Below are positions 2,886 through 56,300 of a stretch of DNA of 64,000 nt, one piece after another. Origin of the DNA: Pempheris klunzingeri. Its lineage: Eukaryota > Chordata > Actinopteri > Acropomatiformes > Pempheridae. The notes under the pieces are model-generated. The model made no database searches. It saw nothing but the letters and a program-made list of their open reading frames with translations, and was not told the DNA's origin. Each line of letters opens with the position of its first letter. Within the stretch, counting starts at the first letter, position 1. The stretch is taken from NCBI RefSeq assembly GCF_042242105.1, contig NC_092012.1, positions 2,568,970 to 2,632,969 of the forward strand, written 5' to 3'. The position numbers were made by a program, and so were the translations under genes.

Positions 2886-3208
2886 AGAAACAGCTCTTAT
2901 ATAGTTCTCTTCAAAGCCACCAGACTCCATTGACAAAAACACTAATTTTACCTTGAGGGCCAAATGAGTTGCTGGTCTTCTGCTGCCTCGGTCGGTTAGT
3001 TTGTTTGTGTTATTTTGTGACTTTGGTGTTTTAAAGAGTTACTTGGGATCCAACTCAGAAGTGGTGTAACATATTTTAGCACAAACTAACTAACTGACTG
3101 AGGCAGCAGTAGGCCAGCAATGCATGTGGCCCTCAAGGTAAAATTAGTGTTTTTGTGAATGGAGTCTGGTGGGTTAGAAGAGGGCGCTATAATGGCTGTT
3201 TCTGATAA
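2886..3208. mobile_element. Foldback repeat, short form, copy 1
   Basis: The left arm contains 'CACCAGACTCCATTGACAAA' and a GCTGGTCT..GCTGCCTC block. The right arm is its reverse complement, ending in 'TTTGTGAATGGAGTCTGG' and then 'GGCTGTTTCTG', which mirrors the CAGAAACAGC at the left edge. The two arms read outward from a centre with ACTTTGGTGTTTTAAAGAGTTA. There is no coding capacity, so I infer a non-autonomous foldback or MITE-like element. Confidence 0.8.
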
Positions 3209-3721
3209 CTCCACATTAGTCTGAGAACAACCTACAGGGACTAAAAGTAAATTCATTTGCTTTATAGATTTATGGCAGATTCAAATGATAAAGCTGGTGT
3301 TAATACTGTATTTTTTTTATCATTGTGATCAAGTCTATGAGTGTAGAATCTACTGAAAGCATCAAGTGTCGGTGAACCGGCTGCGTTTATAGTTTTATAT
3401 TCCACTAATAAAGGGAATAAAAGACCAAACAGAATAAAATTAACCACCTGAATTCAAGAGATTTAAGCATGAAAATATTTTAAACATATAAACATAATGT
3501 AAACACTGATTGTTTCTCGGGTTGGAAAGTTATATTCTGATTAAATACTCACATTTTATCAAACCACTTTATTTAGCATCCAAGAAAACAGTTCAGTTAG
3601 TCTCGAATCAGACTGATGAGAAATTGTCCATATAAGTATTTCTTTATTTTATCTATTTGGTACCAAGTCAAGTACTTTTAAGCAGCATTTTAATGTTTGT
3701 GTCTTGTTTTTGTCCCTCTAA

Positions 3722-3782
3722 AGCACTTTGAACAGCCCTGTGTCTGAAAGATGCCATATAAATAAATGTGTCTTGCCTTAAT
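3722..3782 (+). repeat. LINE-like 3' tail fragment
   Basis: The segment reads AAAGCACTTTGAACAGC then GATGCCATATAAATAAATG. It resembles the 3' ends of fish L2/CR1-type LINEs and related SINEs, which usually end with a '..GCTATATAAATAAA' motif. Only the tail is visible and there is no ORF. The family assignment is from memory. Confidence 0.45.
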
Positions 3783-4507
3783 GTTGCAGCTGGTTTAGAT
3801 GAACTAAACACTCCATAAAAATTGAACGCCTCATTTAGTAGTTTAATCAGCAGCTCAGCTGAGGAAAATACACCAATATTTCCCCAAGATCCTGCTTATT
3901 ACATGTCTTTGTACTAAAAGCATCAATAATTTAACAAACATTGATTGAGAAATGATTTTATTGCTCATTTAACACAAATACAACTGTAGAACATTGTGAT
4001 TAAATCAGAATCAAGTACTCAAAAAAACAACTGCATAATAAAATGAAATCTTAACTGTACAAAAGTGCAGGACTTAGTGTTAAAACTTTCCCATCTGTTA
4101 CACTAAAACTAAACACATTTAAAGACTAATTTCTAAATGATGAGTGTTTTTGGTGGGTGAAACTTAAAAACCAGATCCAAAAGTTTGGTAAACAAGTTAA
4201 TAGTTTAACTTATGAACACAGTCGATGGTTCAAAAAAAATGAAACGTCCATGAAATGAGGCCAAATCCTGCATGTGTGAGATTTAACACAGAGAATTTCA
4301 TTTAAATTCCAGTTATGTCCAGGTTTTTTTAAGATAAAGCAGCATGAGGGAGGAAAAAGAACAAAGTTTAGTGCTGAGAGTTCATCCTGGTGACCCAGAG
4401 GTTGATCGATCAATAAAAAAGCTGCACTGGAGTAAAATCTGTACCTTTGAGTTGCGCCCACATTTCTGAACAAACCACAAAGTTTGGATCAAAAATTATA
4501 AAAACAT

Positions 4508-4513
4508 TTTATT
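4508..4513 (-). terminator. ccnb2: Polyadenylation signal of ccnb2
   Basis: Forward TTTATT gives AATAAA on the minus strand, about 75 bp past the ccnb2 stop codon. It is the first canonical signal downstream and implies a short 3' UTR. Confidence 0.6.
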
Positions 4514-4587
4514 AAAATCTAGTCTCCACAGGTCGTGATCGATCTAAAAATAAAGTGCAAGTGAAATGTCGGAAGGAAACGTCGTCC

Positions 4588-7500
4588 TCAGGGGTCTTTG
4601 AGCAGAGCGGCGGCCATGTTCCTCACGATGGAGCAGCTCAGCTGAGGGATGAGGCTGATCTTCATCAGCTTGCTGCTCGAGTACTTTCTCTTGATGGCCT
4701 GGAAAAGAAAATATAAAATAAATGTAAGAGCATCTAATAATTGACCTGAGAGCTCTTAGTTTAATACAGGAATGTTGGATCATTCCACCACACCAGACTC
4801 CATTGACAAAAACAGTAATTTTACCCGACAGGACATGTGAGTTGCTGGTGTACTGCTGCCTCAGTTTGTTAGTTTGGATTATTGAGAGAGTTTGCTTTTT
4901 ATTAAAGGGTTTACTTTGGATATGAACCAACATGTTAAAGACTCTAAAGTCAATGCAATCAGACCAAGAAACTCCAGGGTTCTGCGAGGTAAAATTACCA
5001 TTTTCATCAATGGAGTCTGGTGTGTTTGCAGAGAGCGATATAACGGCTGTTTGTGGTTAAACCAAAAGGATCTTCCAGGTCTCTCTCTGTAGGGATCCTT
5101 TCCATGATGCTGTCACACACTTAGAATAACACTCTGAGCCTGTCAGTGGCTTTGTCATTCACTCCGTCTAGTTCTTGTGCTTCGTTTCTCACCTGGAACT
5201 TTGTTTTCCCGTCGTTAACCATCACAACGTTTTTGGCGATGTGCTGCATGACTGGCTTCAGGTGGGCCTCGTCGTAGGCGGAGTAGTGCTGCTGAGTGGA
5301 CGACTGAAGGGGAGGAGACCAATTAAAGAACACAGCTTTACTAAAAAGCGTCAATGAGGCAGATTAACGACATTAAACTGCTTCAGTTCTGTCAGACTGA
5401 CCCACGGCAGCCCGTCGAGCAGCAGCTGGGAGAGGCAGAGGGAGGCTGCGGCAATCTCAGAGGGCCGGTAGTGCACCATGTCGTAGTCGATGAGGGTCAG
5501 CTCCATCAGGTACTTGGCCAGCGTGTGTCTCTCTACGTCAGACTGAGACAGAAACAGTCCAGGTGTTAAACACACAGCTACACTCATGAATTCAGTCCTG
5601 GAAAATTATGGCTGCAGCAATTAAGCAGTTTGTCAAAATGAAATTAGAACATCTGAGTTTCCACTGGAAGGGTTTTAAACTGAGAAGAGCTTTTCTCAGC
5701 AGTAAAAAAAACAAATTCAGATAAATAAAACTAATGAAATGCTCAAACCTGCCTGTAATAGAGTCTGATGTTTGCCTTTGTTTGTTCTACACTCCCTTAA
5801 ATTCAGCCTGCTCATAGAAAATGGCTGCTGGTCTCCTAGAAGACCTTGAAGGTTATATTGTTGTGGCAAACGTATCCAAACACTCACATTAGCCACCTTG
5901 GAGGCCCGTCTGAGGAAGTGTAAAGGAAGAGGACGTCCCAGCTGAAAGTTGAGGCTCCTTAAAACCACCTGCTCCATCTCCAGGATCTGAGACTTGGTGA
6001 AGGCGTTGTCTGTGATGTAGGCAAAGTCTCCGACCTCCGGAGCGTACATCTCCTCGTACTTGCAGGCCACCAACATGGACGTCACGCCGACGAGCTGCAG
6101 CTTTCTGCGAGAGACCGGCTGGACCTGCAGCACAGCGAGGAGAAGAGGGGTTTTCAAACAGAGCTCACAAATCCCCCAGAGAGACGAGCACGCAGGCGGT
6201 TCTTACCTGGAGGAAACGATCCAGGACGGCAACTGTGAGGTACAGAGTCTCCTGCAGCAGCTGGAACCTGGAGTGGACCTGGACCAGCCAGTCGATCAGC
6301 AGAGCTCGCATGCGTTCTGTGATTTCATAACCCTGCATGTAGTTTGCTCGTACGGCCTGCTCCACCTGAGGACACAGACGGAGACGTGAGACAACCCCAC
6401 GCAGGGCGAGAGCCCAGAGTTCGGCCCCCAGAGGGATTAAGTTACCTCCAGGGTGTGCAGATAGTGGTAGATGTCTTTGACATATTCGGAGCAGAGCTGC
6501 GGCAGGTCCGAGTCCTGCGCGTCCACGTCCTGCACGGTGAGCAGCGCCTCAGAGAAAGCCTGGCACAGCTCCGCCTCCTCCCTCATGGACACGTCGGCCG
6601 ACTCCTCTGACACCGGGGGGAGGGGGTCTGCGGGTGCTTGGACCTCCCGGACCGCTGGAGGCGCCGCCTGGACCGCAGCAGGTTTGGCCGCCAGGGTCGA
6701 CGGTTTGGCTGCTGCTTTGCCTCGTCCCGTCCTCTGAGGAAGTGAATCAAATGCAGGGTTATTTAAAAATGGATGTTTGAGTTTTGGGCTGTGAGGCTCG
6801 TTTAGCACAGCTTTCAATTCAGCTGTTTAAAGGAAACTTAATTTGCAGCCAAACTGTTGTGAAAGCACATTAGTCATTTCAGGTAAAGACGCCGTCCAAA
6901 ACCTACTTTTACATCTGTAAAACCTTTATTCCATTTAAAACCAGTATACTTTGAACCAAAGCCGTCTCAAATCAGAAATTTCTAATCTGGGTTTTTGTTC
7001 TCAGCCTGGTCTGATGTGGTTTACCTGTGGGGAGGAATAAAGCAGTGAAGTGTCCTTTATGCATTTAGAAATAGGGGTTTTAAAAAAGTGAACGTGGGTT
7101 TGAGACAGTGTTTAAGTCTTTAGCTGACACGTTTAACACTTTCACAACCGCAAGTGCTGCAAAAACGCCAAAAGCTGGAAGTTTCTCTTAACTATCAAAC
7201 TGACTTCAGTGTCTTTGCTTCTCTGTACATTAAAGAAGGTTGGAGTTGGAGAACAAAACCAGATACTTTAGTCCAGCTGCAGTCAGTGAACACTACAGCC
7301 TGATGATGGTTTAACAGCCTCCACACATCGGACCATGTGGAGCAGCTTGTGTGTCTTCCTGTGAGTCATCATGTGATCCACAGAGCTGATTACAGGTGAA
7401 TCACAGCCCAGAAGCCGTGTGTTGCTCCCTGATGTTACCTTTGTGTTGACTGCAGCAGGAAAGTTGGTGATCTCCCCCAGAGCAGCTCTCCTCAGACCCG

Positions 7501-7786: not shown

Positions 7787-7924
7787 CGTTAGTGTCCGCA
7801 GCTACGAGGCCAAACTGTGACTCAGAGAACCGAAAAAAAAAAGAGGATTCAATTTATTTACCGATAAAACAAAAGATCCGTGGACGCCAATTTCTGCACG
7901 CTAACAACACGGAAACGAGCAGCT

Positions 7925-7984
7925 TTCAAATAGCGCTCCGTCAAATCTGATTGGCTGCAGCTTTGATAGGACGCTCCTGATTGG
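7925..7984 (-). promoter_or_regulatory. ccnb2: ccnb2 cell-cycle promoter: CHR plus two CCAAT boxes
   Basis: On the minus strand a TTTGAA (7930-7925) matches the cell-cycle genes homology region bound by MuvB/DREAM and B-MYB complexes. Two inverted CCAAT boxes (forward GATTGGCTG) lie upstream at 7950-7954 and 7980-7984, exactly 30 bp apart. Mammalian cyclin B2 promoters are known to combine spaced NF-Y sites with a TTTGAA CHR. The block lies 140-200 bp upstream of the ATG. Confidence 0.7.
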
Positions 7985-10345: not shown

Positions 10346-11493
10346 CGGACTGAGCCAGGTTCAGAACGGCGATTAGCTGCTGGTGATATGAACAGTACAT
10401 ATTAAACACAGGAAAAGTGGGGTTAACATTCGGTCTCAGTTGATCCCTTGATCTGTTGGACAGTTCGTTTACTTCCACACAACAAAAATAAAATAATATA
10501 CAGAAGGACTGACGCGTTTCTGACGGGGGGAGGGGGGCAGATGGTGTTTGCATTTCCACTCGTCGCTGATTAATGCGGAACAAATTTGGTCTAAATGTGT
10601 CAAAAAGCTGTTCGTTAAGGCACCTAATGCTGTTGGATAGACTGTTTTTTTATGTTTTTTTTTTTGAGGGGAAACTAAAACAAACTGAACGTGTGTGAGC
10701 ACCTGCGAAGACATAAAACAAAACGTTAGGAAACACTACAGATATAACTGATAAGAATTTGCATTTCTGGCGTAAAACTGGCGTGTATTTCTACAGAGAT
10801 GTGGCCCGTTGGAAGTTAATGCTGCCACCATCTACCAATAATGAGGAACACAGGACAGATGAGGAAATAAAAGTAGCACCATTGAGAAAACAATACATGA
10901 TTATAAGCTAGTGAGAATGTGATTTTCCTCCCCAAACTCTAGTGTCAAGAGACATTTGTTAACTTCCAAAATCAGATTCGGGAAATAAAAAGTGAGAATA
11001 AATGTCATGGTTGAGCTGAGGGACAAGGAGCCAGTCTTTCTGTACATTACTTTCAGAATTAAAAAGCATATAAGCAGCCGTTATAGATGGATTTTGCCTT
11101 TTCAGTCATTTTTTTTTTTTAAAAGGGTCGAACCACCATGTTACCATTATACAGTAGCTCCGAAAACAAAGAGGAAACACCGATCCATTTATTCTCCCGT
11201 CTCAACTGTACTCAACTGATTATAAAAACCTTGTGTGCTTTTATTTCTAGGGGTTTTGCAGCTTAGACAACTTAATTTATTTACAGAGCTCTGAATAAAC
11301 CGCAGGAGGTCGATTCAGTGGAAAATAAAAATTGTGCGACGCCGTTGCAGCGCTCATGAATGTGTGACGACTGCAGGCGAACTAAAAACACACACACTGT
11401 AGTTCCTCATGCACATATTGTTACGGCCGACGTTTCATTATGATTTTTCTTTCATGTGAGATTTGTGCGTCAACACTTGGACGTGGTTTTGGT

Positions 11494-12362
11494 GCATGTT
11501 GAATCCATAATATACATAAAACTGTAAATCCTGCTTCAACAACTCTTTCCATCAGACCCAAGTGTCCAACATGATAGCATAGACTGAATAACTGAAGTAT
11601 CTTTAAACCTGGGCCCCATTTTTTTTTTTTTTTTACATATTTTGGTGTCCACAAGACTGGCAGGTACAAAAAGTGTTGGAATTGGTCGACGAGTGCCGCC
11701 AAAATGGGGTGCAATATCTGTCATGTGATCCTTTGGGGCAACTTAAATCAAAGTAGGTCCACTAAAAGTGCTTGTTTGATCCACTGACAGGCTCAAATTG
11801 TTATTCTAAGTGTGTGACAGCATTATGGAAAGGATCCCTACAGAGAGAGACCTGGAAGATCCTTCTGGTTTAACCACAAACAGCCGTTGTATCACTCTCT
11901 GCACACACACACCAGACTCCATTCACGAAAACAGTAATTCTACTTCACTGAACCCGGGAGTTGCTGATCTATCGCTGCCACGATTGATTGATTAGTCTGT
12001 GTTGCTGTGTGACATTGGTGTGTTTAAGAGTTAGTTCGGATCTGAACCAACGTGTTAAAACGCAAAAGTCACAGCAACTAAACCAGCAACTCCTGTGTGT
12101 CACCCTGGAAGTAAAATCCCTGTTTTAGTGAATGGAGTCTGGTGTGTGTGCAGAGAGCGATATAATGGCTGTTTGTGGTTAAACCAAAAGGATCTTCCAG
12201 GTCTCTCTCTGTAGGGATCCTTTCCATAATGCTGTCACACACTTAGAATAACAATCTGAGCCTGTCAGTGGATATTTTGACTAAGAGTTGTTCTCCATGA
12301 TCCTAAACAGTCACTTAGACACCAAAATATGTAAAAATGAGGCCCAGGTTTAAAAAAAACAA
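11494..12362. mobile_element. Foldback repeat, full-length long form, copy 3
   Basis: The outer left arm (TTTAAACCTGGGCCCCAT, then ACATATTTTGGTGTCC) is mirrored at the right end (GACACCAAAATATGTAAAAA, then GGCCCAGGTTTAAA). Moving inward, both arms carry TAGGTCCACTAAAAGTGC, CACTGACAGGCTC, GGAAAGGATCCCTACAGAG, GGAAGATCCTTCTGGTTTAA and CACCAGACTCCATTCAC. Left flanking DNA from about 11494 is also shared, in reverse complement, with the copy at 22.98-23.89 kb. No ORF encodes a transposase. Confidence 0.85.
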
Positions 12363-13121
12363 AAAAACAAAAGAAGTTCTCCTTTAAAAAAACAAAAAAG
12401 GTTCAACATTGTGTGATTGGACTTTACAGAGACACATGATTAACTTACACAGTACATCCTGTTGACAATTAATGAATGACTGAAACTGAAGCAGGTCTTT
12501 ACCAGGAAAGCTACTGGGATAATGAGAACATGGCAGCTGAACCCACATGAACTGACTGACTGATCTTATAATGCCTCTGGACCAACCACACCTTGCTGCG
12601 CGCTCAGCACGGTGCGCCACACACAAAAGTTACAAACTATGAGACAGAAATCAAAGTTCAATAAAAACCTGCCTATGAGACAGAGGGGATAGTCACCATA
12701 CTGTACACTTTCTACAATATCCATGTCCATTATGAATATAACAAGTGCATTCACTTAAAGGAATAGTTGAACTTAAAACAAAATCTCGTTTTTCACTTAA
12801 AATACGGCCAAAAGTTTTACAGAAACGATGAGGACAAACTCCTGAAGTTAACTTTTAGCGTGGGGTGCAGATTAAATGCCAGAGAAATGTACTGGGTGAG
12901 TAAACTTCTGCTTAAATGTACTTTGTATTTATAAAAAGAACTCAAATTACACTAGAAACTTAACAAACACAACTTAAGTGAATAACAGAGATTTGTTTTA
13001 GGACAACAGCACCCTCTAGTAACGTTCGTTCGGATTCTTAACTTTTCAGCAATTTTTTTTGTTTGTTTTTAAATTACTGTACTTCTTTTACATCAACACA
13101 ACAGTTGATTAGCGAGTCGTC

Positions 13122-13127: not shown

Positions 13128-13161
13128 TACAGGGGAAGGTGGGCCTGACGAGCTCCACAGC

Positions 13162-20600: not shown

Positions 20601-22019
20601 ACAGCCGTCCAAGAGAAAGTAGATCCAGGCAAATACGCACCCGTTCTCCTCCGTCGGGACCGAAAGGAGCCACGGCGCCCGAAAAATCAGCCTGAAACTC
20701 AAAAAACGAACATTGTTGGAGACTTTTTTCTAATTTTTAAAAGAAGATGTCGAAAATCCCCATCTTAGTGTGTGCCAGTACTTGTCGGATGTACACAAAA
20801 GTAGTGCTGCATAAACAAACCCCTCCACTGAAGGATCCAGAGGACGGACAGCGGTGGGTTCTACCCGCTGGACCCGCACAGAACCCCTCTAGAACCCTGC
20901 TAGAACATACATCCAGACCTGACACTTTATGACATGTTCTCCCATTGACGTCCCCTCCCTTCCCTTCCCTTCCCTTCACTCATCTCTTGTTAATGCAGGC
21001 AGTGGAGGCTGAGAACAGGCTGGTTCTACTACTGCAGAACCTCACTGTGTTAGCATGTAGCCGAAGCTAACTGTTCCATTAAAACTGATTTATCCTTAAT
21101 TGCATTTAAAATAGTTAATTAAAAGTTAATACCCATCAGTCTGGGATCATTATGAGATATTTATTTCCACCAGTTCTAATTAATGAATGATAGTGTTTGG
21201 ACATTATTGCTTCAAGACTTTGTATTTTTATTAATTTTATTTATTTAATCTTTATTTAGTCCGTTTATTTCATTTATTATGAGTAACCCATTGAAATTAA
21301 GATCTCTTTCACAAGAGAGAACAAGCAACATTCACAAAAACACACAGAACAAAACACAAAACATATTTAGACAATAAAAAATTAAACTATAACAATAAAT
21401 AATGAGTCGGTTACATGAAGCAGATCAACAAAGACATCAGGTAATAAGGTTTTTAATTTATCTAACGGTGATGAGTGACTCCAGTTTGAGGGCAGGTTTA
21501 TTTAAAAAGGTGCATAAGACCTGAACCCAGTTCTGCTAACGTTAGTGAACAACACTGGATCAAGTGCTGAGGTTAGTGGATTAATAAATAAAAATAAAAT
21601 TATTATTACGTGATGGTGTTGTTATAAGTCCACTTTAATATTATCCATTATGTGACTATTTTAATTTATCATGCAGTTTGCTGATCAGACAGATAAGAAA
21701 TAAGATATTTTGTCCTTGTCCTCTATTTTATTAATATTACCTCATTCATGTCACATGGGCTGTGGTCGTCTTGCTATTTGTTCGATCTAGAGTCATTATG
21801 AAATACATAAAAGCCTCTAAAATGTATTTTTATAATAATACATGGAGTCAGTTTGCCGACTATTCATATTTAATAGGTTTTCAGACGCATGTGTCATTTA
21901 AAATAGGCCATTATAATTATACTCTCCTGAATGCACCACAGTTAAATCATGCAAACCTTAAATATAATCAGAGTTAATGTTGCAGTCACCAAGATGAACA
22001 TTAAATGAGAGATTCTGTA

Positions 22020-22750
22020 TTTTCTTTAAACCTGTTTTTACATATTTTGGAGTCTAAATGATAAAGTACATCCACTAAACGTGCTTTTTTTGCCACTGAC
22101 AGGAGCAGATTGTTATTCCAAGTGTCTGATAACATACACCGAAGTCAAACACCAAAGATACACAATAATACAAACAAACTAATCGATCGAGGCAGCGGTA
22201 GACCAGCAACTCCCATGTTCTTCAAGGTAAAATGACTGTTTTTGTGAATGGAGTCTGGTGTGTTTGCAGAGAGCATAATGACAGCATTATGGAAAGGATC
22301 CCTACAGAGAGAGACCTGGAAGATCCTTTTAGTTTAACCACAAACAGCCGTTTTATTGCTCTCTTTAAACACACCAGACTCCATTCACGAAAACAGCAAT
22401 TCTACCTCACTGAACCCAGGAGTTGCTGATCTATCGCTGCCACGATTGATTGGTTAGTTTGTGTTACTGTATGACTTTGGTGTGTTTAAGAGTTAGTTCG
22501 GATCGGAACCAACGTGTTAAAACGCAAAAGTCACAGCAACTAGACCAGCAACTCCTGTGTGTCACCCTGGAAGTAAAATCCCTGTTTTTGTGAATGGAGT
22601 CTGGTGTGTGCGCAGAGAGCGATATAACGGCTGTTTGTGGTTAAACCAAAAGGATCTTCCAGGTCTCTCTCTGTAGGGATCCTTTCCATAATGCTGTCAC
22701 ATATTTAGAATAACAATCTGAGCCTGTCAGTGGCTAAAACAAGCACTTTT
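22020..22750. mobile_element. Foldback repeat, long form, copy 4
   Basis: It begins with CTTTAAACCTG and ACATATTTTGGAGTCT. It has both inner arms (CACACCAGACTCCATTCACG and GTGAATGGAGTCTGGTGTG), each also present in an extra inverted half at 22225-22265. It ends with CTGAGCCTGTCAGTGGC and AAGCACTTTTAGTGG. The left half is rearranged: an inner arm is nested between 22170 and 22290. It is non-coding. Confidence 0.75.
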
Positions 22751-22984
22751 AGTGGTCTTTGGTGGTGGTGTGTCTTTGGTATTGTCCAAAAACAGCGATC
22801 AATACCTTTATCACACCTGTTAGTGATGTGTGAAGATACACTGAGGCTGTTGTAAAGAGAGAAAAGGTGTGATAGTCTGTTCATTGATATCTGTGGATTG
22901 ATGTAATATGAACCTCTCCTTGAAAACTTCTTTAAAATCTTTTAAAGAGAGAATCATCTTCACACCTGCTGCAACTAGTGGACA

Positions 22985-23889
22985 TGTTTAATTCCTGTTT
23001 TTCAAAATCTGGTCCTTATTTGCACATATTTTGGTGTCTTAGTGATCAGACTCCATTGATAAAAACAGCGATTGACCTGACTCGATCAAAGTAGGTCCAC
23101 TAAAAGTGCTTGTTTTAGCCACTGACAGGCTCAGATTGTTATTCTAAGTGTGTGACAGCATTATGGAAAGGATCCCTACAGAGAGAGACCTGGAAGATCC
23201 TTTTGGTTTAACCACAAACAGCCGTTATATCGCTCTCTGCACACACACCAGACTCCATTCACAAAAACAGGGATTTTACTTCCAGGGTGACACACAGGAG
23301 TTGCTGGTCTAGTTGCTGTGACTTTTGCGTTTTAACACGTTGGTTCCGATCCGAACTAACTCTTAAACACACCAAAGTCATACAGTAACACAAACTAACC
23401 AATCAATCGTGGCAGCGATAGTACTCCTGGGTTCAGTGAGGTAGAATTACTGTTTTCGTGAATGGAGTCTGGTGTGTGTGTGCAGAGCGTGATACAACGG
23501 CTGTTTGTGGTCAAACCAAAAGGATCTTCAGGTCTCTCTCTGTAGGGATCCTTTCCATAATGTTGTCACATATTTAGAATAACAATCTGAGCCTGTCAGT
23601 GGTTAAAACAAGCACTTTTAGTGGACCTACTTTGATTTAAGTTGCCCCAAAGGATCACATGACAGATATTGCACCCTATTTTGGCGGCACTCGTCGACCA
23701 ATTCCAACACTTTTTGTACCTGCCAGTCTTGTGGACACCAAAATATGTAAAAAATAAAAAAAAATGGGGCCCAGGTTTAAAGATACTTCAGTTATTCAGT
23801 CTATGCTATCATGTTGGACACTTGGGTCTGATGGAAAGAGTTGTTGAAGCAGGATTTACAGTTTTATGTATATTATGGATTCAACATGC
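22985..23889. mobile_element. Foldback repeat, long form, copy 5 (inverted relative to copy 3)
   Basis: Its right half, through CAAAATATGTAAAAAA, GGGGCCCAGGTTTAAAGATA and TTATGGATTCAACATG, is the reverse complement of 11494-11760. By eye the two copies are nearly identical, including flanking DNA outside the apparent terminal arms, so the real element boundary is wider than the palindrome. No ORF of transposase type is present. Confidence 0.8.
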
Positions 23890-24205
23890 AGCAACTCCTG
23901 GGTTCAGTGAGGTAGAATTAATGTTTTTGTCATTGGAGTCTGGTGTGTTTGCAGAGAACGATATAACTGCTAATTGACCTGGAAGATCCTTTTGGTTTAA
24001 CCACAAACAGCCGTTATATCGTTCTCTGCAAAACACACCAGACTCCATTGACAAAAACAGTGATTTTACCTCACAGAACACAGGAGCTGCTGGTCTGCCG
24101 CTGCCTCGTTCACTTAGTTTGTTTGCGTTGAATTCCTGTGTTTTGTCAATGGAGTCTGGTGACTTAAACACCAAAATATGTCTCTAAAAAAATAAAAATA
24201 GGACT
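23889..24205. mobile_element. Foldback repeat, rearranged copy 6
   Basis: This copy abuts copy 5 directly. It starts inside an arm (AGCAACTCCTGGGTTCAGTG) and runs through TGGAGTCTGGTGTG. It then restarts with AGATCCTTTTGGTTTAACCA and CACCAGACTCCATTGAC, and closes with GTCAATGGAGTCTGGTGAC and ACACCAAAATATGTC. The order suggests insertion or recombination between arms. Confidence 0.7.
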
Positions 24206-24829
24206 GAGGTTTTAAAATAACAGAATTACCATTTAGCTGAGCACAATGGACGTGTGTGTTGCAGCAGTGATATTTCCATCAACATCGATATACCTCAGCT
24301 CAAGAAATTTTAGTATCCTGGAGCGCTGCCCAGAAAAACAGCTACAGACGCTTGAACCTGGTGGGCGTCGAAATTCACCTTTCACTGCATATCCCTACTC
24401 TACAGAGTGGTTTACAACGTGTGGGCTGCATCGCCTCCTGCATGCGCGAGGAAGCCAGCTGCCATGGAAACCACCTAAATACCCCCCACCCACCCCCAAC
24501 AAACCCTGACCTTCTCCGCTCGGTTTGAAACGAAGGTGTGAGCTGAGCTGTACGTCTGCCCAGTGGAGTTTTTAATATTCAGCATATGTGTGACGAGGCG
24601 AGTGGAAGTATTATCACTTCGCCGTGGCCTCTTGGTTTTACGTTTAAATGATGGGACAGCCCACTGAGGTGAACCACTCCACACACAAGTCAGTTGGGAT
24701 AATTTGAAGTGGGGTTATATGAGGTGTCCACAGTTGGACGAGGGCTGCAGAAAATGCTATATGTGTGTACATGTATTCTATATTTAAGATCAGACAGCTC
24801 TGATGGGGAACCGAAGTCCTTCTATCCAT

Positions 24830-25185
24830 CTAGGCTCTCTTCAAAGCCACCAGACTCCATTGACAAAAACAGTAATTTTACCTTGCAGGACTTGAGAGTT
24901 GCTGGTCTACCGCTGCCTCCATCAGTTAGTTTCTTTGTGTTATTGTGTGACTTTGGAGTTTTAAAGGGACTACTTCGGACCCAGCCAAATATTTGTGTTA
25001 CACACAATAACTTAAACAAACTTCCCAATCAAGGCTGCAGTAGACCAGCAACTCCAATGTTCTCCAAGGTAAAATTACTGTGTTTATCAATGGAGTCTGG
25101 TTGCTTTTGAAGAGAGCGATATAACGGCTCTTTCTGGTTACAAACAGGATCTTACAGATTTATCTCTTCCGGGATCTTTTCTATC
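24830..25185. mobile_element. Foldback repeat, short form, copy 7
   Basis: The left arm GCTCTCTTCAAAGCCACCAG is mirrored by CTGGTTGCTTTTGAAGAGAG on the right. The inner blocks GTTGCTGGTCTACCGCTGCC and GCAGTAGACCAGCAACTCC are also mirror images. It has a tail with GGATCTTACAGATTTATCTC. It is non-coding. Confidence 0.78.
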
Positions 25186-25460
25186 CATTTAGGCTCTCTT
25201 CAAAGCCACCAGACTCCATTGACAAAAACAGTAATTTATTTCACCTTGCTGAACACAGGAGTTGCTGGTCTGCCGCTGCCTCGATTGGTTAAATTTCTTG
25301 TTTTAATTTGTGATTTTGGTGTTTTAAGTGGTTGGTCCAGATATGAACAGCGTTAGCTCACAGATCAAAGCAGCAGTAGTACAGAGACCTCCCTGGTTCT
25401 GCGCGGTAAAATTACCGTTTTTGTCAATGGAGTTTGGTGGCTTTGAAGCTAGCAGATAAA
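25186..25460. mobile_element. Foldback repeat, short form, copy 8
   Basis: This copy is head to tail with copy 7: TTTAGGCTCTCTTCAAAGCC starts the left arm and TCAATGGAGTTTGGTGGCTT ends the right arm. The right arm is more diverged (AGTAGTACAGAGACCTCCCT). The two adjacent short copies suggest insertion beside a pre-existing element or local duplication. Confidence 0.75.
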
Positions 25461-26229
25461 GATAGAGAATGGCCTCAGTTCTGTGTCTGACAGCAATATA
25501 AAGCGGTGAAAATGCTGTGAATATAATGTGCACTTTAACAGATGGTGATTTGTTTAGGTAGTTTAGGTAGGTCACTGTAGTTTTTAACAAATATTACTCA
25601 AGTAGGAGGAAACGGTGCATTCATCAGGGACTATTACCAGAGGCGGATTAATCCACAGTTGGTGCTCTAGTGAGCGTTTGGTGTCATACAGTGCAGCCTT
25701 ACTGTGTCAGCTGATGAATACTCTGAACGATTACGTGATGATGATGATGATGACGTCTCACTGTGGCTCACTGATGACTGGCTGTGGTCTTTAAACACTT
25801 TAAACGTTATCTGTCACGGTTAACGGGCGTAACCTGGAGTTTTTCTCTCAGCCCTAAAATACAGGTTTGTGCGTGGAAAACTTTATAATAATATGTACCT
25901 ATGAACGTCATGGCTCATCATAAATAGACTTAAGACTTAAACACACTTCAGTCTACAGAATACAAGATAAAATACCTCAAATTTAAAAACACGAACGCAT
26001 AACACGAAATAACTTGGAGCTGATTTGTTGTACTTTAGCATGACCAAATTACAGTGACAGGATTTACATTTATTCACGTATTTACGTTTAAATTTATAAT
26101 AATATTGTACTTTCTGCTTCACTACATTTATCTGATAGCTTTAGTTACCTTTAACATACAAAACATATGAAGAGTTTATGAAATATGATGTTTTGTTATA
26201 AATTAAACTCACACTCAACAGTACAGCTG

Positions 26230-27670: not shown

Positions 27671-30359
27671 ATGGCGGAGAGGCCGGAGGATCTGAACCTG
27701 CCCAACGCGGTGATCACCCGGATCATCAAGGAGGCGGTGAGTGGACAGAGACCAGAACCAGGACCAGGAGGTGTCCACACACAAGGAGTCTGACTCCGGA
27801 TTAAAGTTACTCACTAATACAGAAATAAACAGACAACTACGGAAGAGGATTAGGGCCACGTGTGGGAAAATGAACTCTGTTAAATGTTTCACATGTGGCT
27901 CTAAAGTCTTTACAGACATAAATAGAGATAAACATTTACCTTTTAGTACAAGTGGGTAAAGAGTGGGTGTTTAAATATAAACAGTGAGCTACATTATAGT
28001 CTGTAGTCTATTTAACTGGTCCAAGTGTTTCTTTACCTGCAAACCAAAACAAATGGAGCAAAAGAATAAACACTGAATAGCTCATTTTAATATTTATTCC
28101 TTTGTGTTGTTTGTACTTAAACACCAAGAGGTGGAAGAAAAAGCGTTAACGTTATGTTCGTTACTGATTTATCTCATTTTCTTAATTATTAGAATTGTTA
28201 ATTATTGAATAAACAATAAAAATATTAAATTTACTATAATTTCAGTCCAAGGAAAGCAGAAAATCTCATTTGAGAACCTGGCGGTGTGTCATTTTAGGCA
28301 TTTATACTTGAAAAGTAACTTTTAACGATTAATTAATTATCCAAATAGATGCTGGTTAGTTTTTTCATGACTAATCTTTACAGCTGCAATGCAACAGTGT
28401 AAAAATACTCAATAACAAGACTTCCTTTCATAATGTGACTTAAGTAAACGTAGAAAAGTGTCTCAACATGTCAGGTGAGGTCCCTCCAAAGGGTCATCAG
28501 GTGACACTGAGGGGTCGTCACATGATTAATAGGAGAGAGAAGAGTTCTTATACACATATCTGTGTTGTATTCTTATTGTTTCTTTGATCCCTTTTGGCCT
28601 CAAAGAATTATTTACACGAAAATGTGAGCAGTTTGTAGAAAAGGTCTCCTCAGTGGTTTTTCTCCGCCTGCCTGTGTGTTGTGATAAAATGTCCTGCAGC
28701 TTGGAGATAACTCCTCCGCACCGTTTGTTTTCTCATCAGCTCCCAGATGGGGTGAATGTGTCGAAAGAAGCCAGGAGAGCCATATCCCAAGCTGCCAGCG
28801 TGTTCGTGCTGTACGCGACGTCCTGGTAAGAATAAAAACAGCCCACTTGGATCGTCTGACAGACGAGAATTGATTCACAAAATTCTGCTCGATTCAAGTT
28901 CTGTTGTGATTTCACACATTTGAGACGCCGAGAAAACAGAGTAAGTGTTTTTTCATCTGTTCATCTTCTCAAAGCGCAAACAACTTTGCCATGAAGGCCA
29001 AGCGGAAAACTCTGAACGCAGGAGACGTTTTGGCAGCGATGGAGGAGATGGAGTTCGAACGATTCCTGGAGCCCCTCCGAGAAGCTTTGGAGGGTCAGTG
29101 ACGGTTTCAGGCTTTTAAGGAAATGTGACAAAGAACAAACCGACTTCTGCACTTTAAACCACAACTTAAGTGTTCAGCTGGCTCAAATTACAAAAAAACA
29201 ACACACGTGACATAACGGCTTGTTTCCTACAGGTGAGGACACGTCCTTCCTGAGCCACAGCAGTGTCCTCACTACGTCCAACCTTTAACAGAACAGCTCA
29301 GGTGTTTTTAAACCTGGGCTCTGTTTTTACATTTACACTATTTTCACATATTTTGAGTTTGAAAAGACTGGTGGGTACAGTTTTGGAATTGGTCCAGTAG
29401 ATCACTTCAGCCAGCAGCCGCAAAACAGGCTGTAATTTAATCCTTTGGGGCAACTGCACCTGATAAAAGTAGGTCCACTAAAAATGCTTGTTTTAGCCAC
29501 TGACTCTCTCTCTCTCTCACTCAGAGTGTTATTCTAAGTGTGTGACAGCATCATGGAAAGGATCCCTACAGAGAGAGACCTGGAAGATCCTTTTGGTTTA
29601 ACCACAAACAGCCGTTATAGCGCTCTCTGCACACACACCAGACTCCATTCATAAAAACAGTGATTTTACATCACAGAACACAGGAGTTACTGGTCTACTG
29701 CTGCCTCAATCAGTTAGTTTCTTTGTGTTATTGTGTGACTTTGGAGTTTTAAAGGGACTACTTCAGACCCACCTCAATATTTGTGTTACACACAATAACT
29801 CAAACAAACTTACCAATCAAGTCTGCCGTAGATCAGCAACTCCCATGATCAGCAAAGTAAAATTACTGTTTTTGTCAATGGAGTCTGGATGCTTTTGAAG
29901 AGAGCGACAAACCAGCTGTTTGTGGTTACAAACGGGATCTTACAGATTTATCTCTGCAGGGATCTTTTCAGCGGCTAAAAGAAGCACTTTTGGTGGATGT
30001 AATGAGCCGAGGCACTTGCCCCAAAGGCCGTTCTGCAGCTGCTGGCTGAGGCTGATCTACCGGACCAAATCCTAAAAGTTTTAGCACCTACTGGTCTTTT
30101 TGAAGCCAAATAAAAATAGGCTCCAGCTTACATAATACTGCCGTTATCCTTTTAAATATGCAGTGAGAGACTCTTGCTCTACTGAAGCTGAAGCTCTGAA
30201 AGTTATTTCCTGACTTTAATCTAATTTTAATGATGTTTAATTAACCACAACGTGTTCCTCAACAGTGTACAAGAAGGGCCAGAAAGGAAAGAAGGAGGTG
30301 TCTGAGCAGAAGCGCAAAGATAAAGAGAAGAAGACCGACTCTGAGAACGACAAGAGCCG

Positions 30360-32635: not shown

Positions 32636-36286
<3,651 letters not shown>

Positions 36287-38996: not shown

Positions 38997-39514
38997 CAGG
39001 GTGAAGGCCAGCTGTTATTTCTGCATAAACAAACTGAGCCCGAAGCAGAACCGGCGAGCCAATGTTGACACACACACTCATGGACACACTCGACAGCTCA
39101 TTTGTTAAACTCTGGGGAATGATTCGATTTCAGGAGAGTTCCTCTCCTCCATCTTTTCGTCCTACTTGACCTTTTCCTTGTGTTTTCCAATCAGCAGCTC
39201 TTCTCCTCTTGTTTCTTCTGTCTGATTTTCTCTGCTGTACAATTTCCTCTATTGATTTTTTTTCTGGAGCCCGGCTACAGTCGGGGGAGTCGGGGGCTCA
39301 GTTCGCAGCTTGTCTCTTTTAACTGGATTCAAAAGAGGAGAACAAATTGTCTTTGGATTTCTGCCACTCATCTGTGTCAATCTATAAGAATCTATCAGCA
39401 TCTACAGGTTCATCAATAGCTACAAAGCCCAGAGCAGCTGATTCATGATTGGGTTTGTGAGAAGGGAGTCGATGACGCAACTTTAATCTCCACTTCATGT
39501 AGTGCAGATCTGAT

Positions 39515-40100
39515 ATTTTTAAACCTCGGTCCTATTTTTTTTAACAGATTTTGGTGTCTAAATGGGCCGGTAGGCGCAAAAAGTGTTGGAATTGGTCCAG
39601 TAGATCACCTCAGGCAGCAGCTACGAAACGGGCTCCTTTGGGGCAACTGCACCTGATCAAAGTAGGTCCACTAAAAGAGCTTGTTTGATCCACTGACAGG
39701 CTCAGATTGTGGAAAGGATCCCTACAGAGACAGAAGAAGATCCTTTTTGTTCAACCACATATCGGCCTCATCAAACACACCAGACTCCATTCACAAAAAC
39801 AGCGATTTAACCTCGCAGAACACAGCAGTTGCTGGTCTACTGCTGCCTTGATCGGTTAGTTTGTTTGTGTTTTTTGTGTCTTACACAGATATTGTGTTGG
39901 ACACGAAAAACTCTTTAACACACAGAAGTCACACAATAATAAAAAACAAACTAATCAATCGAGGCAGCGGTAGATCAGCAGCTCCAGAACTCTACAAGTT
40001 AAAATTACTGTTTTTGTCAATGGAGTCTGGTGGCTTTGGGATCCTTTCCATAATGTTACACTTAGACACTTAGAATAACAATCTGAGCCTGTCAGTGATA
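39515..40100. mobile_element. Foldback repeat, long form, copy 11
   Basis: It starts with TTTTTAAACCTCGGTCC and AGATTTTGGTGTCTAAATG. It includes GTAGGTCCACTAAAAGAGC, CACCAGACTCCATTCAC and the mirrored arm GTCAATGGAGTCTGGTGGC. It closes with GGGATCCTTTCCATAATG and CTGAGCCTGTCAGTG. The right outer arm is incomplete. Confidence 0.78.
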
Positions 40101-40796
40101 CTTTACTTACATTTAGCTTCTAAATGCTTGTGTACATTTAAATAAGAATGATTGCAGGACGATATTGAACTGTATTTTCACAGTGTTGTATTGATACTCA
40201 CACAAAAATACTGAAATAGACACAATATGTATACAAAGTCAGACATGCCAACCCTCACCAGCACTGTTTGGTATGTTGATCTGTTTGTTTGTTTTCCATG
40301 TTGACAAATGGTTTCACTCTCTATTGACTTGAGCTTGTTCAGGTGGAAAACAAAAAACAGGACATCGCTGCGCTGAAACAATCTCCCTTCCCTCTAAGGC
40401 GCTTTAAAGATAAGTCGTTCTTCTTTTATTTTTTGTGTCTGAGCTAAAACATCTGCAGAGATTTGTTTTCCTGACACGGAAAAAAGAAAAGTATCAACAT
40501 TTAAAGGAGATGGATATTTAGAAAACGAGGGATTAGATCTTTACAGATTAAGAGATTACATAACTACAAGTTTGTGAAGACCAATCTGAGTTTTTATTCT
40601 GGCAGGATATCAGGTCTCGTTTTACCGCTAGAAGCCATTTGAGTTGTCAGTCACCTCATGCCCAGAAATTATCATCCATAATTTACTAAAAGTAATTAGT
40701 TAATTTTAGGAATCAATGGACGCTTATTCACTTTCTTACTGACAGTTAGTCGATAAGACAAATAACGCTCACGTCTGTGTTTTAAGTATTGAGCTA

Positions 40797-47441: not shown

Positions 47442-47475
<34 letters not shown>

Positions 47476-47612: not shown

Positions 47613-48559
47613 GTGGGTCAGTTTAAACTTTACCTCCATTTCATTACACAGGAAACACTGAGGCTGGAAAATAACATCAAGTAGAGTTAAATAATAAATA
47701 TAATATAATGTAATGTAATGATAAATAAAATAAATACCATATAATGTAATATACAGTAATATAATATAGGGCAAAAATTAATATCAACCAATAGAGTATC
47801 ATGTAAGATAAAATAATGGGAAATTAATGTAATGATAATACTAAATAATACATACAATATATAATAAGTAATATAAAGTGGTATAATGTAATTTAGAATA
47901 AGATTAAATAATATAATTACAATATAATTCAATGTAATATACAGTAATATGATATAATTTAACACAAAGTAATATAATGTAAAAATAATACAATATCATG
48001 TAATAAAGTATATGTCACATAATGTAAGGTAAATATAATAGATATAAATATGAAGTAAATAGTATAAAATCATAATATAATGTCATGTGATGTAATATAA
48101 TAGTATTTGTTAAAAAAACTTTACTGGTACAAAGTACTCGTGTACTTAAATTTTGAGGTATTTGTACTTGTACTATTTGCATTTTCTGCTGCTTGATGTT
48201 TCTGCTTTTTTTTTTCTTTACCACAGTAATTTGCCACCTTTGGTTACTTTGGATTAATAACACAAAATATAATCCACTATTGAATATATCATTATAGATT
48301 AGAAATACTGCGTTAATCTCTCATCCAAATGGTCAAAAATACACCAAATAAATCACATATAATTAAAAATAGATTAACTTTCTGTCTGTTTTGGTTTATG
48401 GTTCCAAGAGACGAGTTTCACGTGTCCTCCAAACTTAAATATTTATTGATCCTGAGGGGAAATCCACATGTGAGCTCCACCTTTATCAGCTGCAACATTA
48501 ACGTAATTAACGCAATAAACATTATAATCCATTTACGTTTCGATCGGTTAGTTTCGAGG

Positions 48560-48660
48560 CAGCTGTAGACCTACCTGTGTTCTACGAGGTTAAATTAGTG
48601 TTTTTGTCAATGGAGTCTGGTGTGTTTGAAGAGAGCGATATATCCCAAAGGATTACGTTA
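48560..48660. mobile_element. Foldback repeat, half copy (copy 12)
   Basis: Only one arm is present: GAGGCAGCTGTAGACCTACC, then TTTTTGTCAATGGAGTCTGG, TGTGTTTGAAGAGAGCGATA. The opposite arm is absent or decayed. Confidence 0.65.
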
Positions 48661-50359: not shown

Positions 50360-53300
50360 ATGCCCATCATCAGCAATGCCAACCACGACTTCGGCACCTA
50401 CTCCATCAGCAGCGATGACAGCAGCCTCGACCGGTTCTTCACCGAGATCCCGGAGACCGAGACCATCAAGGGCGTTTACTTCCAGCGCGCCCAGCTGCTT
50501 CGTGACCCCAAGGCCTCGTACGTGGTCGACCACACCCTGCAGGTTCTCATCAATGTCGGGGGCAACCGCTACACCTTCCCCTGGAGCACCTTGGAGCAGT
50601 TCCCCCAGAGTCGCCTGGGACGCCTTCGCTTCTGCACCACCCCTGAAGAGATCGCACGGCTCTGCGACGACTACGACGAGACGTGCCAGGAGTACTTTTT
50701 CGACCGAAACCCGACAGCCTTCAGGGTCATCCTCAATTTCCTGGCCGCAGGAAAACTGCGCCTGCTTCGGGAACTGTGTGCCGTGTCGCTGCACGATGAG
50801 CTTGACTACTGGGGCGTGGACCCGGGCCACATGGAGCGTTGCTGCCGTCGCCGCATGATCACCCGTGTGGATGAGGTGGCCGAGCGAGAGCGCAAGGAAG
50901 AGGAGTGGAGGAAGAAGAGGGTGATGCTGAAGAAGACCACCACGCAGGCTGAAAAGGGCTATCGCAGACTGATCTGGATGCTGCGGGAAGTGGTGGAAAA
51001 CCCTCAGGGGTCGGGGTTGGCCGGGAAGATGTTTGCCTGCCTCTCTGTCATCATGGTGCTGGTCACCGTCATCAGCCTCTGCATCAGCACCATGCCAGAC
51101 CTCAGAGACGAAGAGACCAGGGTGGGTAACATCCTGTCAAACCTGTTTTTCACACATGAATCACCGGCAGAGGTTTCATAACATAACATCACAGAAAGAA
51201 AGACGCATTAAGTGACACTATTTTATGTAAATTAACTGCTTAAGATTCAACGTTAGTTATATTTTCTAACTGTCTCCTAATATATTTCACAAAAGTGGAC
51301 GGAAAGACGCATAAATCTGCATTTTCTTTGGCAGATTTTTAAAAAAATTGTTGAAATCTGTCTTACAGTTAGATGGAGAGCTGGTTGTTAATTTATTGTC
51401 CGGCCCTCATCGCTCTCATCAGCAATGAGAAATCTACTCTATGCCACCTGAAAGGGCTCCTTCTTAACTCAAATGTGAAATCCCCTGACTTTTACTTGAG
51501 TTTCCATGACTAAAATTTTGCATTTCCATGACCTATAAATGTAACATGAGGTGCAAAAACAAATATTTTTAAACACACGGTTGATCAGTTGATCAGATCT
51601 CACACTCCTAACCTATTTATCATTAGTTTGTAACCAAAGCTCCAGAAATTTACGCTTTCTCTGCATGTTTATCAGCTCAGCATCAGTTTTTCATCCATTC
51701 AGTAGCCAAAACATCGCTAATGTTTGAGTGGGAGCTAAGGAATAGAAATGATTTCATGTAACCATAAACTAGGATGGTAGGATGCATGTGAAACTCCCCA
51801 AAAATGAAAAAAGTTTTTAACAATTTAAACAATAGTTTATTAAAGTCCCTGATTTTCCCGGTCTAGAATGAACTTTTCTTAATTCCACGACCTGCTCAGG
51901 ACCAAGCGACAGAGACAGTTAGCATCGAGCTAAACGAGGCGGAGAAATTAGCAGCTAAAGATTCAGATATTTCTCTCAGGGGTTGGTGGAGCGCTGAAGC
52001 TAAAAAGCGAGTTAATATCTAAACCATGCCGGCGTTACAAGGCTGTAAAATGCCAAAAACAAAATCACTTAATGAACATGTGAATAAGGACTCAAGGCCC
52101 ATTTATGTAAAACTCACAACAACAATCTCACCATAATCTGTTCAGTCTATTTTTCCTACTAACAGAACTTATAGATTAAAATGAGCTGCAATCTTGTAAA
52201 AATAAAACCTAAATATACTTTAAAGCTTTAAGTTTTTGTATGAATATATGATTAAATGAGATAAAGATGTTAAATGTCAATTAAAACCAAACACGGGATC
52301 AATTATGTTTATTTTAATAGCAATACAAATTGATAATTTACAGAAAGACAGTAAATAAATAATCACATCAACACAATATTAATATTATCAATATGTAACT
52401 AATATATAATTAATATATATATTATTTATATTAAACACAATACTTAATAGATTGATGATATACAATCATTACAGTAAAATAAATACAGGTAAGACACAGT
52501 AAAGGTTAGTGTTTGTAAAGCCGTGTGGGGAAAGGAGTTTAATTTTTGCTTTTCTTTTGTTAAACATGAGACTTTTTCTTGTCGGAGTTAACAGAAGCAG
52601 ACAGGCAGTCGAATTGATTATATAACTAATTGTCAGGCCGTGTGATTATGTTTCTAAGCTGGAGACGGCAGATTGATTTCTCCCCGGTGTACGTGCAGTC
52701 AATCGCACTAATCAAGAAACGAGAAAAATCAAAGCTCGGACGTGTTCAGAAACTGAAATCCACAAAATTGCTTTTCACATGTTTCGTAATTGACGAGCGT
52801 TCGAATGGACAAACATCTGGAGTTGTGTTTCTCGCTTCGGCTCAGAGGCAGAAGCAAAGCCAAGATTCCTTTTAATTCTTGGAAACCAGTTTTGTTTTGG
52901 CTTTGGGGTTTTTCTGGCAGACATTTGAAATTGAATGTTGGCCATCTGGTGTAATTAGCTGTTATTCAGCTTGACAGGCAAATAAGGCCGATCAGAATCA
53001 GATGAAGCTGAAAGCTGGTTTGTCCAATAAAGAAACTACAAAGGGACTCAAATTTGTACTAATTTATAAAATAACAAATGTGGTCTCCCTCCACTTGTGC
53101 TTATGTGCATTTGCAATTTATACATAAATCGTAAAAAGTGGATGGAAACTAGCAATCATTCACATTTTCTTTTTCTGATTATCAGTATATTGGCTCTTTG
53201 ACTTCAGAAGCAACATCTTAATTTGATTTTTCCAGCAGAAATATCAACTATCATGATCAGATTCATCTAATAGCTCATTTTTTAATGTCCCTGAAGACTG

Positions 53301-56300
53301 ATATGAAAATGGAAATAGTCTTAATTATGTATTTGATGACTTCATGACATCATGCTGATTCAGCGCTGCGTAATAGAAGCTTAATTAGCATAATTTATTA
53401 AAAGAACAGCATATTGTTCTTGTGTTTTGAAGCAAACATGTATTATCACTTTTTCACATTAAGTTGTTTGAATGTTCACACGACACGACTTTGCCAAACT
53501 CAGGAGCTACAAATGTAAGATACAGAGCTTAAAAAGTGATATTACATGTTTTCTTATAATGCTAGCTACTCCAAAACACAAGAATATGCTATTTTTTTAA
53601 ATTTATTATGCTAATTGTGCTAATGCTATTATGCAGCTCTGCATTAGCATTATGTCATGTAGTCAAAGAGTTAGATAATGTTAGCTTAAACTCTGCTAGT
53701 AGCATCTGGGACCAGTGGTACATCTTCTGCAACGTTGCAGATGTGTAAATCTTGAATGGGGCTTTTTCTTAAGTAACAAAACCCAAATTAACCATTTTTT
53801 CTTGGCTCCAAAGTAAGAAAATTAATTAATTAAGTTCGCTAATGACAAGCTAACTCTTAGCCTGAGAAGTAACGCTAGGTTCAGTATCAGATTTATCTAA
53901 TATGTAATATTTCTAATGTCCCTGATGACTGATATGAAAATGGAAAAACTCACTAAACAGTCTTAAATTTGTATTTGATAACTATAAGACACAATCTGCT
54001 AATCTAGCGTTGCATTAGTAGCATTAGCATAATTAGCATGATTTATTAAAAACAGCATGTTGCTCTTATTTTGGTGTAGCTAGCTAGCATTTAGCTAGCA
54101 ACATTTAATATCACCTTTTGACATTAAAAGGTGTCTAAAGTAATTAAACCTAAATTAACCATCTTTTCTTCAAGTAACAAAAGAAATTAATTTAGTTAGC
54201 TAATGATCAGCTAGGTTAGGTCGCTCGGTTACCGCAGGTGTTAGTTAGCCATGCTAACATTTTTTAGCGCAGATGAACAATTGCTCAGTATGATTTTTCT
54301 GTTTAATCCATTCGTTATGCTTAAGCCGTTTTATTTTTGATAAAAGAGACACCCCTTGAGGTCAGCTTTTCTTAGCTATGGCTGCTAATGCTAATTGATC
54401 TCAGTTTTGTGGAGGGCTTTTGGTGAATTGGCTAATATTCAAAGAAAAGTTTAATATCCTAATAGCCTCGATGTTGAGACAGGCAGCTTTTACAGCCGCA
54501 TATCGACGGTTAATTGGTTAAATTATGCAGTAAAACTATCAGCATGTTGGCAAACAGACGGTTCAGATCGAGTTCACTCTTGTTTCCTGAACCGGACTTC
54601 CTTCACAAATAATTAACTTATTCCCAGGTTTTGTATTTCCTCCGGTAACAAACGTAACACAGTAATGTAAGTTAATGTAGGTTAAAAGTATTGATGATCT
54701 AATGCTTAATGAAACCAGTCTTTTCTGTAAACACAGTGATAGAAGAGGTTGGAATTTTCTTATTTTATTTTTCGTGACTCTGGTATTTGTGACAGCGATT
54801 CCTCATTAGACATTATCTTGTTTTCTACCATCGCTCAGTCAGCTGAAATAGATTTTTCTTTTTACCATTGATTTTTTTAAATGACTGATCCTCATCACAC
54901 CGTACTCAGTTTTAACATCAAGAAATGTTGTATTGAAATCAATTGAAGCGCTGTGTAGACACACAACGCTGAAAAGATGTTGATTGAAAATACTTCAATA
55001 CATTTATCAGCGTGCTTCTGCTGACAACATGATTCATTGTCTGGTGTAAAATATTTTTTGCAACCAAAACAATAATAATGCAACTCCTTCATCAAACCTC
55101 TCCGCCTGATAAATGACCACGTCATTCGAGCAGCTCTTTATTATTCATTTGAGGTCTCGAGTCCAATTCAAGATCTCCTGATGAGAAAACATTGGCTCAT
55201 TAGACTTTAGGACAGTGCTGGGAGAAGTAGTGAGATCAGAGAAGTAAAAGTGCTAAGATATTACTATAGTAAAAGTATCCAAGTGTAATCAGGGAAATGC
55301 AGTTAAAATATTAAAGTGACTGTTCCTCATTCCTCATAATTCATAGAAAATCAGGATTTTACTGTTGGAGCTAATTTTTTAACAACTTTTAACCAGAAAC
55401 AGCTGTTATTTTGCTCTCTTCAAAGCCACCAGACTCTATTGACAAAAACAACAATTTTATCTGGCAGAGCACAGGAGTTGCTGATTTACTGTTGTCTGGA
55501 TCAGTTAGTTTGTTTGTGTTGTTGTGTGACTTTGGTGTTTTAATGAGTTAGTGTGGATCCAACACAATGTTTGTGTAACACACAATAACACAAAGCAACT
55601 TATTGATCGAAGCAGCGGTAGAGCAGCTACTTCTTTTCTGGTTCAGGTAAAATTAACGTTTTTGTCAATGGAGTTTGGTGGGTTTCAAACGTGACAGTGG
55701 AGTCGTCCTTTCACGCATGCAGCCACAACCAAACTGTTGTCTAAACAAACAACAGGAGACCGTCTGTGTCAGACTGTTATAACCTACTGAAATACTCTGA
55801 AATAAAATGGCTTTTATTTCACGAAAAGATCACAGGAAATCCTTTCTGTCATTAGTGCTGCTTCACAGCGGAGCGTTCAGGCTCAGTCAGAACTAACAGC
55901 TACAGCAACAAAACACCAGAGAACTACGAAAGATATTATAACTTACTACTTTACTGCACTCTAAATATCTGTGTGGTTGGTTTTCAGTCATAAAGAAGTT
56001 TAACTTGAGGTCTTTCTGCCAGAAAGAATTAAGGGAATCAGGTGACGTAGTTTAAAGTCCGATAAAGGCTCACAAAGTGGTGAGATCCTGATGGGTGAAC
56101 GGGTCCGTAGGATTTACGTTTTTAGGGTTTAGAGTTACTTTCCAAGTTTATTGTGGATCAGAGACTGAAATGCACACAATGTTGAATCAGGTCACAAACT
56201 AGGGTTAGGGTTAGCTTAACCCTTAATAAAGCTTCTTTATGAGTAGAAATATGTCCAGATGAGTTAAGAAGCTTCACAGTTTGTCTTTGCAAACTATAAA

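Follow-up and report, generated by a model that had tools for sequence, protein, structure and literature searches.

The foldback repeats analyzed here form a family of Kolobok-type, non-autonomous palindromic MITEs of about 0.85 kb with TTAA duplications. The family is probably a widespread old element whose arms have been overwritten in place near chromosome ends, likely by ectopic gene conversion. Old termini are present on many chromosomes, including their interiors, and insertion of the element would have been widespread and old. Copies within 1-3 Mb of chromosome ends match one recent, nearly identical family sequence over part of one or both arms, and this part lies beside old sequence. 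Because this young tract has variable limits and adjoins old sequence of the same copy, it appears to have been replaced after insertion.

The window, which is the whole stretch of 64,000 nucleotides analyzed, comprises bases 2,568,970-2,632,969 of contig C1 in a genome of 646 Mb and 439 contigs. The foldback family of the original prediction proved real, on the evidence of inverted pairs, motif matches, and profile matches on both strands. The window contains 37 inverted pairs, with arms of 54-325 nt that are 73-99% complementary in the 25 pairs listed. These 25 span the copies at 2.9, 11.5, 22-23, 23.9, 24.8, 25.2, 29.3, 33.4, 39.5, and 55.4 kb. The copy at 4.8 kb is not in any of these pairs but has a family profile match on both strands. 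When up to 3 mismatches were allowed, CACCAGACTCCATTSAC was found 29 times in the window against 0.31 expected, a number reached in 0 of 100 shuffles. This 17-base motif has 4202 exact matches in the genome, and its reversed control has none. Family sequence was present at all 13 of the copy sites first proposed, that at 48.6 kb being a half copy. In line with the claim that no copy encodes a protein, the two open reading frames of at least 110 aa that overlap the palindromes of the window (24709-25110 and 4544-4933) were both without a Pfam match at E 0.001. Viral contigs gave 0 matches to family sequence, and one family 14-mer, searched in full-text literature, led to a single paper, on mouse diet.

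The ends of the element were revealed by comparing the outer edges of the relatives of the 29.3-kb copy. The terminus originally proposed, TTTAAACCTGGGCC, is not the real end, which lies about 16 bp further out; the commonest form of this end is TTAA followed by AGGRTAACTYYGGTATTTTTAAACC, and variants occur. Among 26 termini, which include both members of a duplicated pair in the window and were collected with a model that starts inside the element and leaves out the terminus itself, TTAA is located 16 bases before the anchor in 13, 15 bases before it in 3, and elsewhere in 2; it is absent from the 45 upstream bases in the other 8. Four copies are full-length (847, 823, 859, and 863 bp); TTAA flanks three of them on both sides, and the fourth has TTAA and TTGA. 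Locus L031 is palindromic over its whole length (75.5%, 887 alignment columns), and the remaining full-length copies are palindromic in blocks. All 13 termini with TTAA at the exact position start with two purines, reading AGGRT in 6 and AGGRR in 3. Both ends of L031-L033 start in this way; the decayed window copy starts with CA.

The terminus of piggyBac elements is 5'-CCY. The 5'-AG/AGG ends of this family do not fit a piggyBac MITE, despite the TTAA. TTAA is described as a target of piggyBac too, and the Kolobok signature as a TTAA target duplication with termini 5'-RR...YY-3' (PMC9587614, the latter also PMC6004289). The family was filed as Kolobok-type because it combines the TTAA duplication with purine ends. 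It had been proposed as a non-autonomous element with its mobiliser elsewhere. The non-autonomous part stands, and the TTAA/AG ends make mobilisation in trans the natural reading; the mobiliser itself was not found. Genome-wide, 36 exact old termini exist. Even the nearest neighbours on a single contig are separated by 294 kb, so exact matching revealed no intact pair. We take PF20478 to be the accession of the Kolobok-linked protein family. The family with that link is described as the P2X7 C-terminal family (PMC9587614).

Long and short forms both exist, as had been suggested, but they are not simply two element sizes, many copies being mosaic. The inner palindrome is also found with other outer arms (L035). 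Near position 2780 of L035 and at 1-400 of L033, it lies within a second TTAA-AGG repeat type, with different outer arms that carry TTAAAGGAATAGTTCGG; module exchange between MITE families is a possible explanation of this shared palindrome.

The best full-length copy in the window, 863 bp long, occupies 29285-30155, with TTAA at 29285-29288 and 30152-30155. It has the homogenised core (arm columns 241-300) in its left arm and the old form in its right arm. The left core of this copy is almost the same as in many others, yet over most of the copy the best relative (best 40 of 5106 candidates) is 80% identical; thus, the copy does not look like a fresh insertion. A long copy at 11489-12387, with a left end decayed near 11581 and TTAA at the right (12384-12387), is matched by a long copy at 23080-23894, the outer terminus of which has no TTAA: 11489-12271 is an inverted duplicate of 23119-23894 (783 bp at 96%). 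Since the non-element flank is also common to both (11489-11581 and 23802-23894; 93 bp, 99% identical, inverse orientation), these copies are one insertion and its local inverted duplicate, not two transpositions. A partial copy followed by a second palindrome (22279-22755) is located at 22010-22755, with the homogenised core in both palindrome arms. The window also contains a rearranged copy with pieces of both arms (23889-24241), an inner palindrome with an old-type arm (24808-25184), another inner palindrome directly beside it (25193-25489), and a short form with an old-type inner palindrome (2863-3213). There is a further long copy at 39509-40104, with a mosaic left arm and a shortened right arm, and an inner palindrome at 4783-5151, with a homogenised right arm that stops at about 5151 against DNA without detected element similarity. 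The half copy, found by motif match, lies at 48554-48642.

The remaining two copies touch on the claim that copies lie in introns of four genes, which is supported for the 33.4 and 55.4 kb copies only. The former (33448-33995), with the homogenised core in both arms, lies between two SNORA65 genes (32895-33021 and 34318-34444, minus strand), the only Rfam matches in the window. This arrangement fits introns of a single host gene, presumably RPL12. The latter, a short form at 55387-55691, lies between a BTB_2 and an ion-transport open reading frame (50360-57551, plus strand, Pfam matches), which probably belong to one voltage-gated potassium channel gene. Elsewhere in the window, AT-rich and TTTAAACACA-type repetitive stretches unrelated to the element were noted by eye at 1362-1747 and 63514-63998, and about 0.9 kb at 46080-47023 matches other places in the fetched sequence at a depth of up to 15.

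Copies near chromosome ends match one another at 93-99% in the arm middle, and identity drops toward both sides. Pairwise identity along the arm in the set from the end of C1 was 0.66, 0.79, 0.85, 0.89, 0.93 (core), 0.79, and 0.73; interior copies gave 0.79, 0.70, 0.68, 0.80, 0.78 (core), 0.75, and 0.71, with no peak at the core. Across 122 arms, a count that excludes the relatives of the 29.3-kb copy, identity to the consensus was highest in the middle (0.94-0.97), compared with 0.77-0.81 at the terminus and 0.69-0.85 toward the centre. The profile itself was built from loci of those relatives and a window copy. A two-state model was applied to the 98 of 195 arms with at least 150 aligned columns, and it beat a uniform rate per arm (225 against -416 for the best of 60 permutations, the reference being permutation within arms and not a constraint model). 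Its young stretches match at 99.4% and its old stretches at 84.3%; 76 arms were called mosaic, 12 old, and 10 young. The model itself placed 24 outer steps from old to young, at columns 33-252, with a mismatch of 22% outside and 0.1% inside. In addition, 20 tracts carrying an 18-bp deletion variant on C1, C3, C8, and C19 show few or no differences and stop at differing points.

The surroundings of the core were compared in 68 arms. The tract reaches the terminus in 12, adjoins older arm in 21, and adjoins other element pieces in 9; the other 26 are followed by 420 bp without detected similarity to the element. Five of these 26 nearly reach the terminus, and 7 or 8 more keep a weak old terminus by eye. 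About 13-14 arms thus seem to abut unrelated DNA and would need a non-homologous joint or a deletion.

A search with a young arm found 40 places at 95-100%, its own included (best 40 of 1739 candidates). Fifteen of these youngest-arm loci were fetched, and their young arms show 99% identity across columns 71-300. Within the fetched stretch, which was short on that side at some loci, 13 of them scored only 10-13 for the middle of the opposite arm, where shuffled sequence reached at most 10.5; the score was clearly above the shuffled level only in L047 and L049. Because the opposite middle is at or near the shuffled level in 13 of 15, a locus usually combines a young arm with one that is not young.

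Nearly all of the best-scoring matches lie near contig ends. The relatives of the 29.3-kb copy (best 40 of 5106, its own copy left out) all lie within 3.2 Mb of a contig end, at a median of 2.09 Mb, and fall on 14 chromosome ends; of the 40 young-arm places (best 40 of 1739, own included), 39 lie within 1.5 Mb, at a median of 0.66 Mb, on 17 ends, so that both counts are clustered, and the distances on C7, C21, and C23 depend on lengths bounded by neighbours. The young-arm places are nearer the ends than the relatives of the 29.3-kb copy (p=4e-13, best 40 of each, clustering ignored). When the two sets are pooled, both ends of C1, C17, C19, and C23 are represented. The 36 exact old termini are much more dispersed: 19 lie up to 3.2 Mb from an end, and 6 of them up to 1.5 Mb. 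An old inner motif has 239 exact places in the genome. The first 100, those listed, cover C1-C9 completely; of the 95 places there, 81 are no more than 4.2 Mb from an end, mostly in one half of each chromosome (C1 25:1, C4 12:2, C8 13:0, C9 1:10; C6 1:1). A control repeat from L035 has 7 places including its own, 1 of 7 within 3.2 Mb of an end; at 4.2 Mb, the old inner motif and this control did not differ significantly (81/95 vs 4/7, p=0.089). Telomere repeats are present at both ends of C9 and at neither end of C1, and C8 begins with N. A concentration of the family on C1 alone was rejected, the family being present in 6 of 10 stretches from other contigs; it was found in 0 of 3 stretches inside C1 at 10, 20, and 30 Mb.

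End and interior copies were also compared at loci chosen by the same exact old terminus. Thirteen of the 36 were used, 7 from ends and 6 from interiors: 6 of 17 interior and 6 of 19 end loci were selected to be widely spread while their cores were still unseen, and a seventh end locus (L032) had a young core known beforehand. Arms with at least 45 core columns were counted, 9 per side; arms without an aligned core, frequent at end loci, were not. A core match of 0.95 or more was found in 8 of the 9 arms from ends and in none of the 9 from interiors (p=0.0004); without L032, the counts were 6 of 7 and 0 of 9 (p=0.0009). The values were 0.98-1.00 in eight end arms and 0.87 in the ninth, and 0.77-0.92 in the interior arms. 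The interior copies are old elements, diverged evenly along their arms. This test speaks for replacement after insertion, and against both a core conserved everywhere and a polishing artefact.

Replacement would most likely proceed by ectopic gene conversion or a related recombination-dependent copying between elements. Recombination between copies fits the variable limits, the changes to one arm only, the old termini, and the location at chromosome ends, where zones of active recombination may favour it. Crossovers in teleost males are described as gathering at chromosome ends (PMC8824383). The arm middle around GGAAAGGATCCCTACAGAGAGAGACCTGGAAGATCC is common to the replaced stretches and may mark the start of exchange. 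Ordinary gene conversion favours near copies. On C1, core identity shows no effect of distance (0.935 under 60 kb and 0.934 over 500 kb), and the two sister arms within a copy resemble each other no more than other arms do (0.926, 11 pairs). The lack of both effects counts against simple conversion. Local gene conversion is weakened by the distance independence, and conversion mainly between sister arms is not supported, since these are no more alike and often differ in state. It is speculation that the distance effect would be erased if copies drew on a common donor pool, for instance excised element DNA, or if exchange were very frequent.

A bolder form of overwriting is possible, and we hold it tentatively: the element would spread without moving, an arm segment from a genome-wide donor pool overwriting old end copies in a drive-like manner from the telomere inward. 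Copying would then affect single arms and be independent of distance, and many ancient insertions would be kept young at one site.

Functional constraint would leave the arm middle selected, as a regulator-binding site, a small-RNA source, or a chromosome-end function, with the rest free to decay. When arm and column effects were fitted to 57 arms, these additive effects accounted for much of the variation: residual correlation at lag 1 was 0.064 against a simulated maximum of 0.050, and residuals at lags 5-20 were inside the simulated range. Since so little residual correlation is left, much of the mosaic follows common column classes, and this is the main statistical weakness of overwriting in place as an explanation. 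The independence of core identity from distance on C1 also agrees with constraint. In interior copies, however, the core is as diverged as the rest (pairwise 0.778; none of the 9 arms of the matched test conserved), and a function would therefore exist at chromosome ends only. The limits of the identical stretch vary from copy to copy, the element in L033 gave two Rfam matches, both far below the gathering score, and a tRNA scan of five element loci found none. A fixed constrained core is weakened by the diverged interior cores and the matched test, and we consider constraint unlikely.

Recent transposition of chimeric young elements, formed elsewhere and inserted whole, seems equally improbable. 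The near identity of the 15 youngest arms would be expected of it, as would the 40 places that match the young arm at 95-99% (best 40 of 1739), and the youngest arms begin at or next to TTAA at several of the 15 loci. Yet the same copies hold old termini and young tracts, TTAA is lost at about half of termini, the middle of the opposite arm is at or near the shuffled level in most of these loci and the rest of that arm differs, and the 29.3-kb copy has no full-length relative above 80% (best 40 of 5106). Finally, that polishing or read correction drove high-copy arms to the commonest sequence is very unlikely despite the high copy number, since interior copies are not homogenised and the share of arms with the 18-bp deletion, as against the haplotype without it, declines along C1 with distance from the end (6/6, 2/3, 6/12, 2/6, and 0/12 of 39 arms, the last being the window), and polishing should not depend on position.

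Several known systems resemble parts of this picture. T2-MITE of Xenopus is described as sharing the TTAA site, purine ends, inverted repeats, the lack of detected coding sequence, thousands of copies, and old age (PMC6004289). Compared by description only, its ends are AGGRR (PMC6004289), whereas AGGRT (6/13) is more frequent here than AGGRR (3/13); unlike in T2-MITE as described, the arms here span most of the element and homogenised tracts occur at chromosome ends. Ectopic conversion of Alu likewise partly replaces old copies with younger family sequence and creates hybrids (PMC8230782, PMC6598467). The Alu comparison reports 98 clear conversion cases among 68,097 insertions compared, with a distance effect; here, by contrast, most of the sampled end arms are mosaic, the distance effect is absent, and the element is a DNA transposon, not a SINE. 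Tf2 of fission yeast is also described as renewed by recombinational replacement of resident copies and not by new insertion, but it is an LTR retrotransposon that uses cDNA (PMC6598467), and the present element has no known donor form. Tetris of Drosophila virilis is a non-autonomous foldback element with long inverted arms and modular, rearranged forms, and its arms are described as carrying tandem repeats of about 220 bp (PMC4079207). Full-text search of open papers found no report of a Kolobok-type palindromic MITE with homogenised arms confined to chromosome ends. Gene conversion among elements is already known from Alu and others; the scale and position dependence seen here would be new.

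The ages of repeats are usually read from their divergence. If end copies are overwritten, then ages, subfamily trees, and estimates of transposition bursts would be wrong in these regions. If the proposed replacement is true, the family would be a natural genome-wide record of ectopic recombination, and it would bear on the male crossovers described at teleost chromosome ends (PMC8824383), with a test of where exchange starts.
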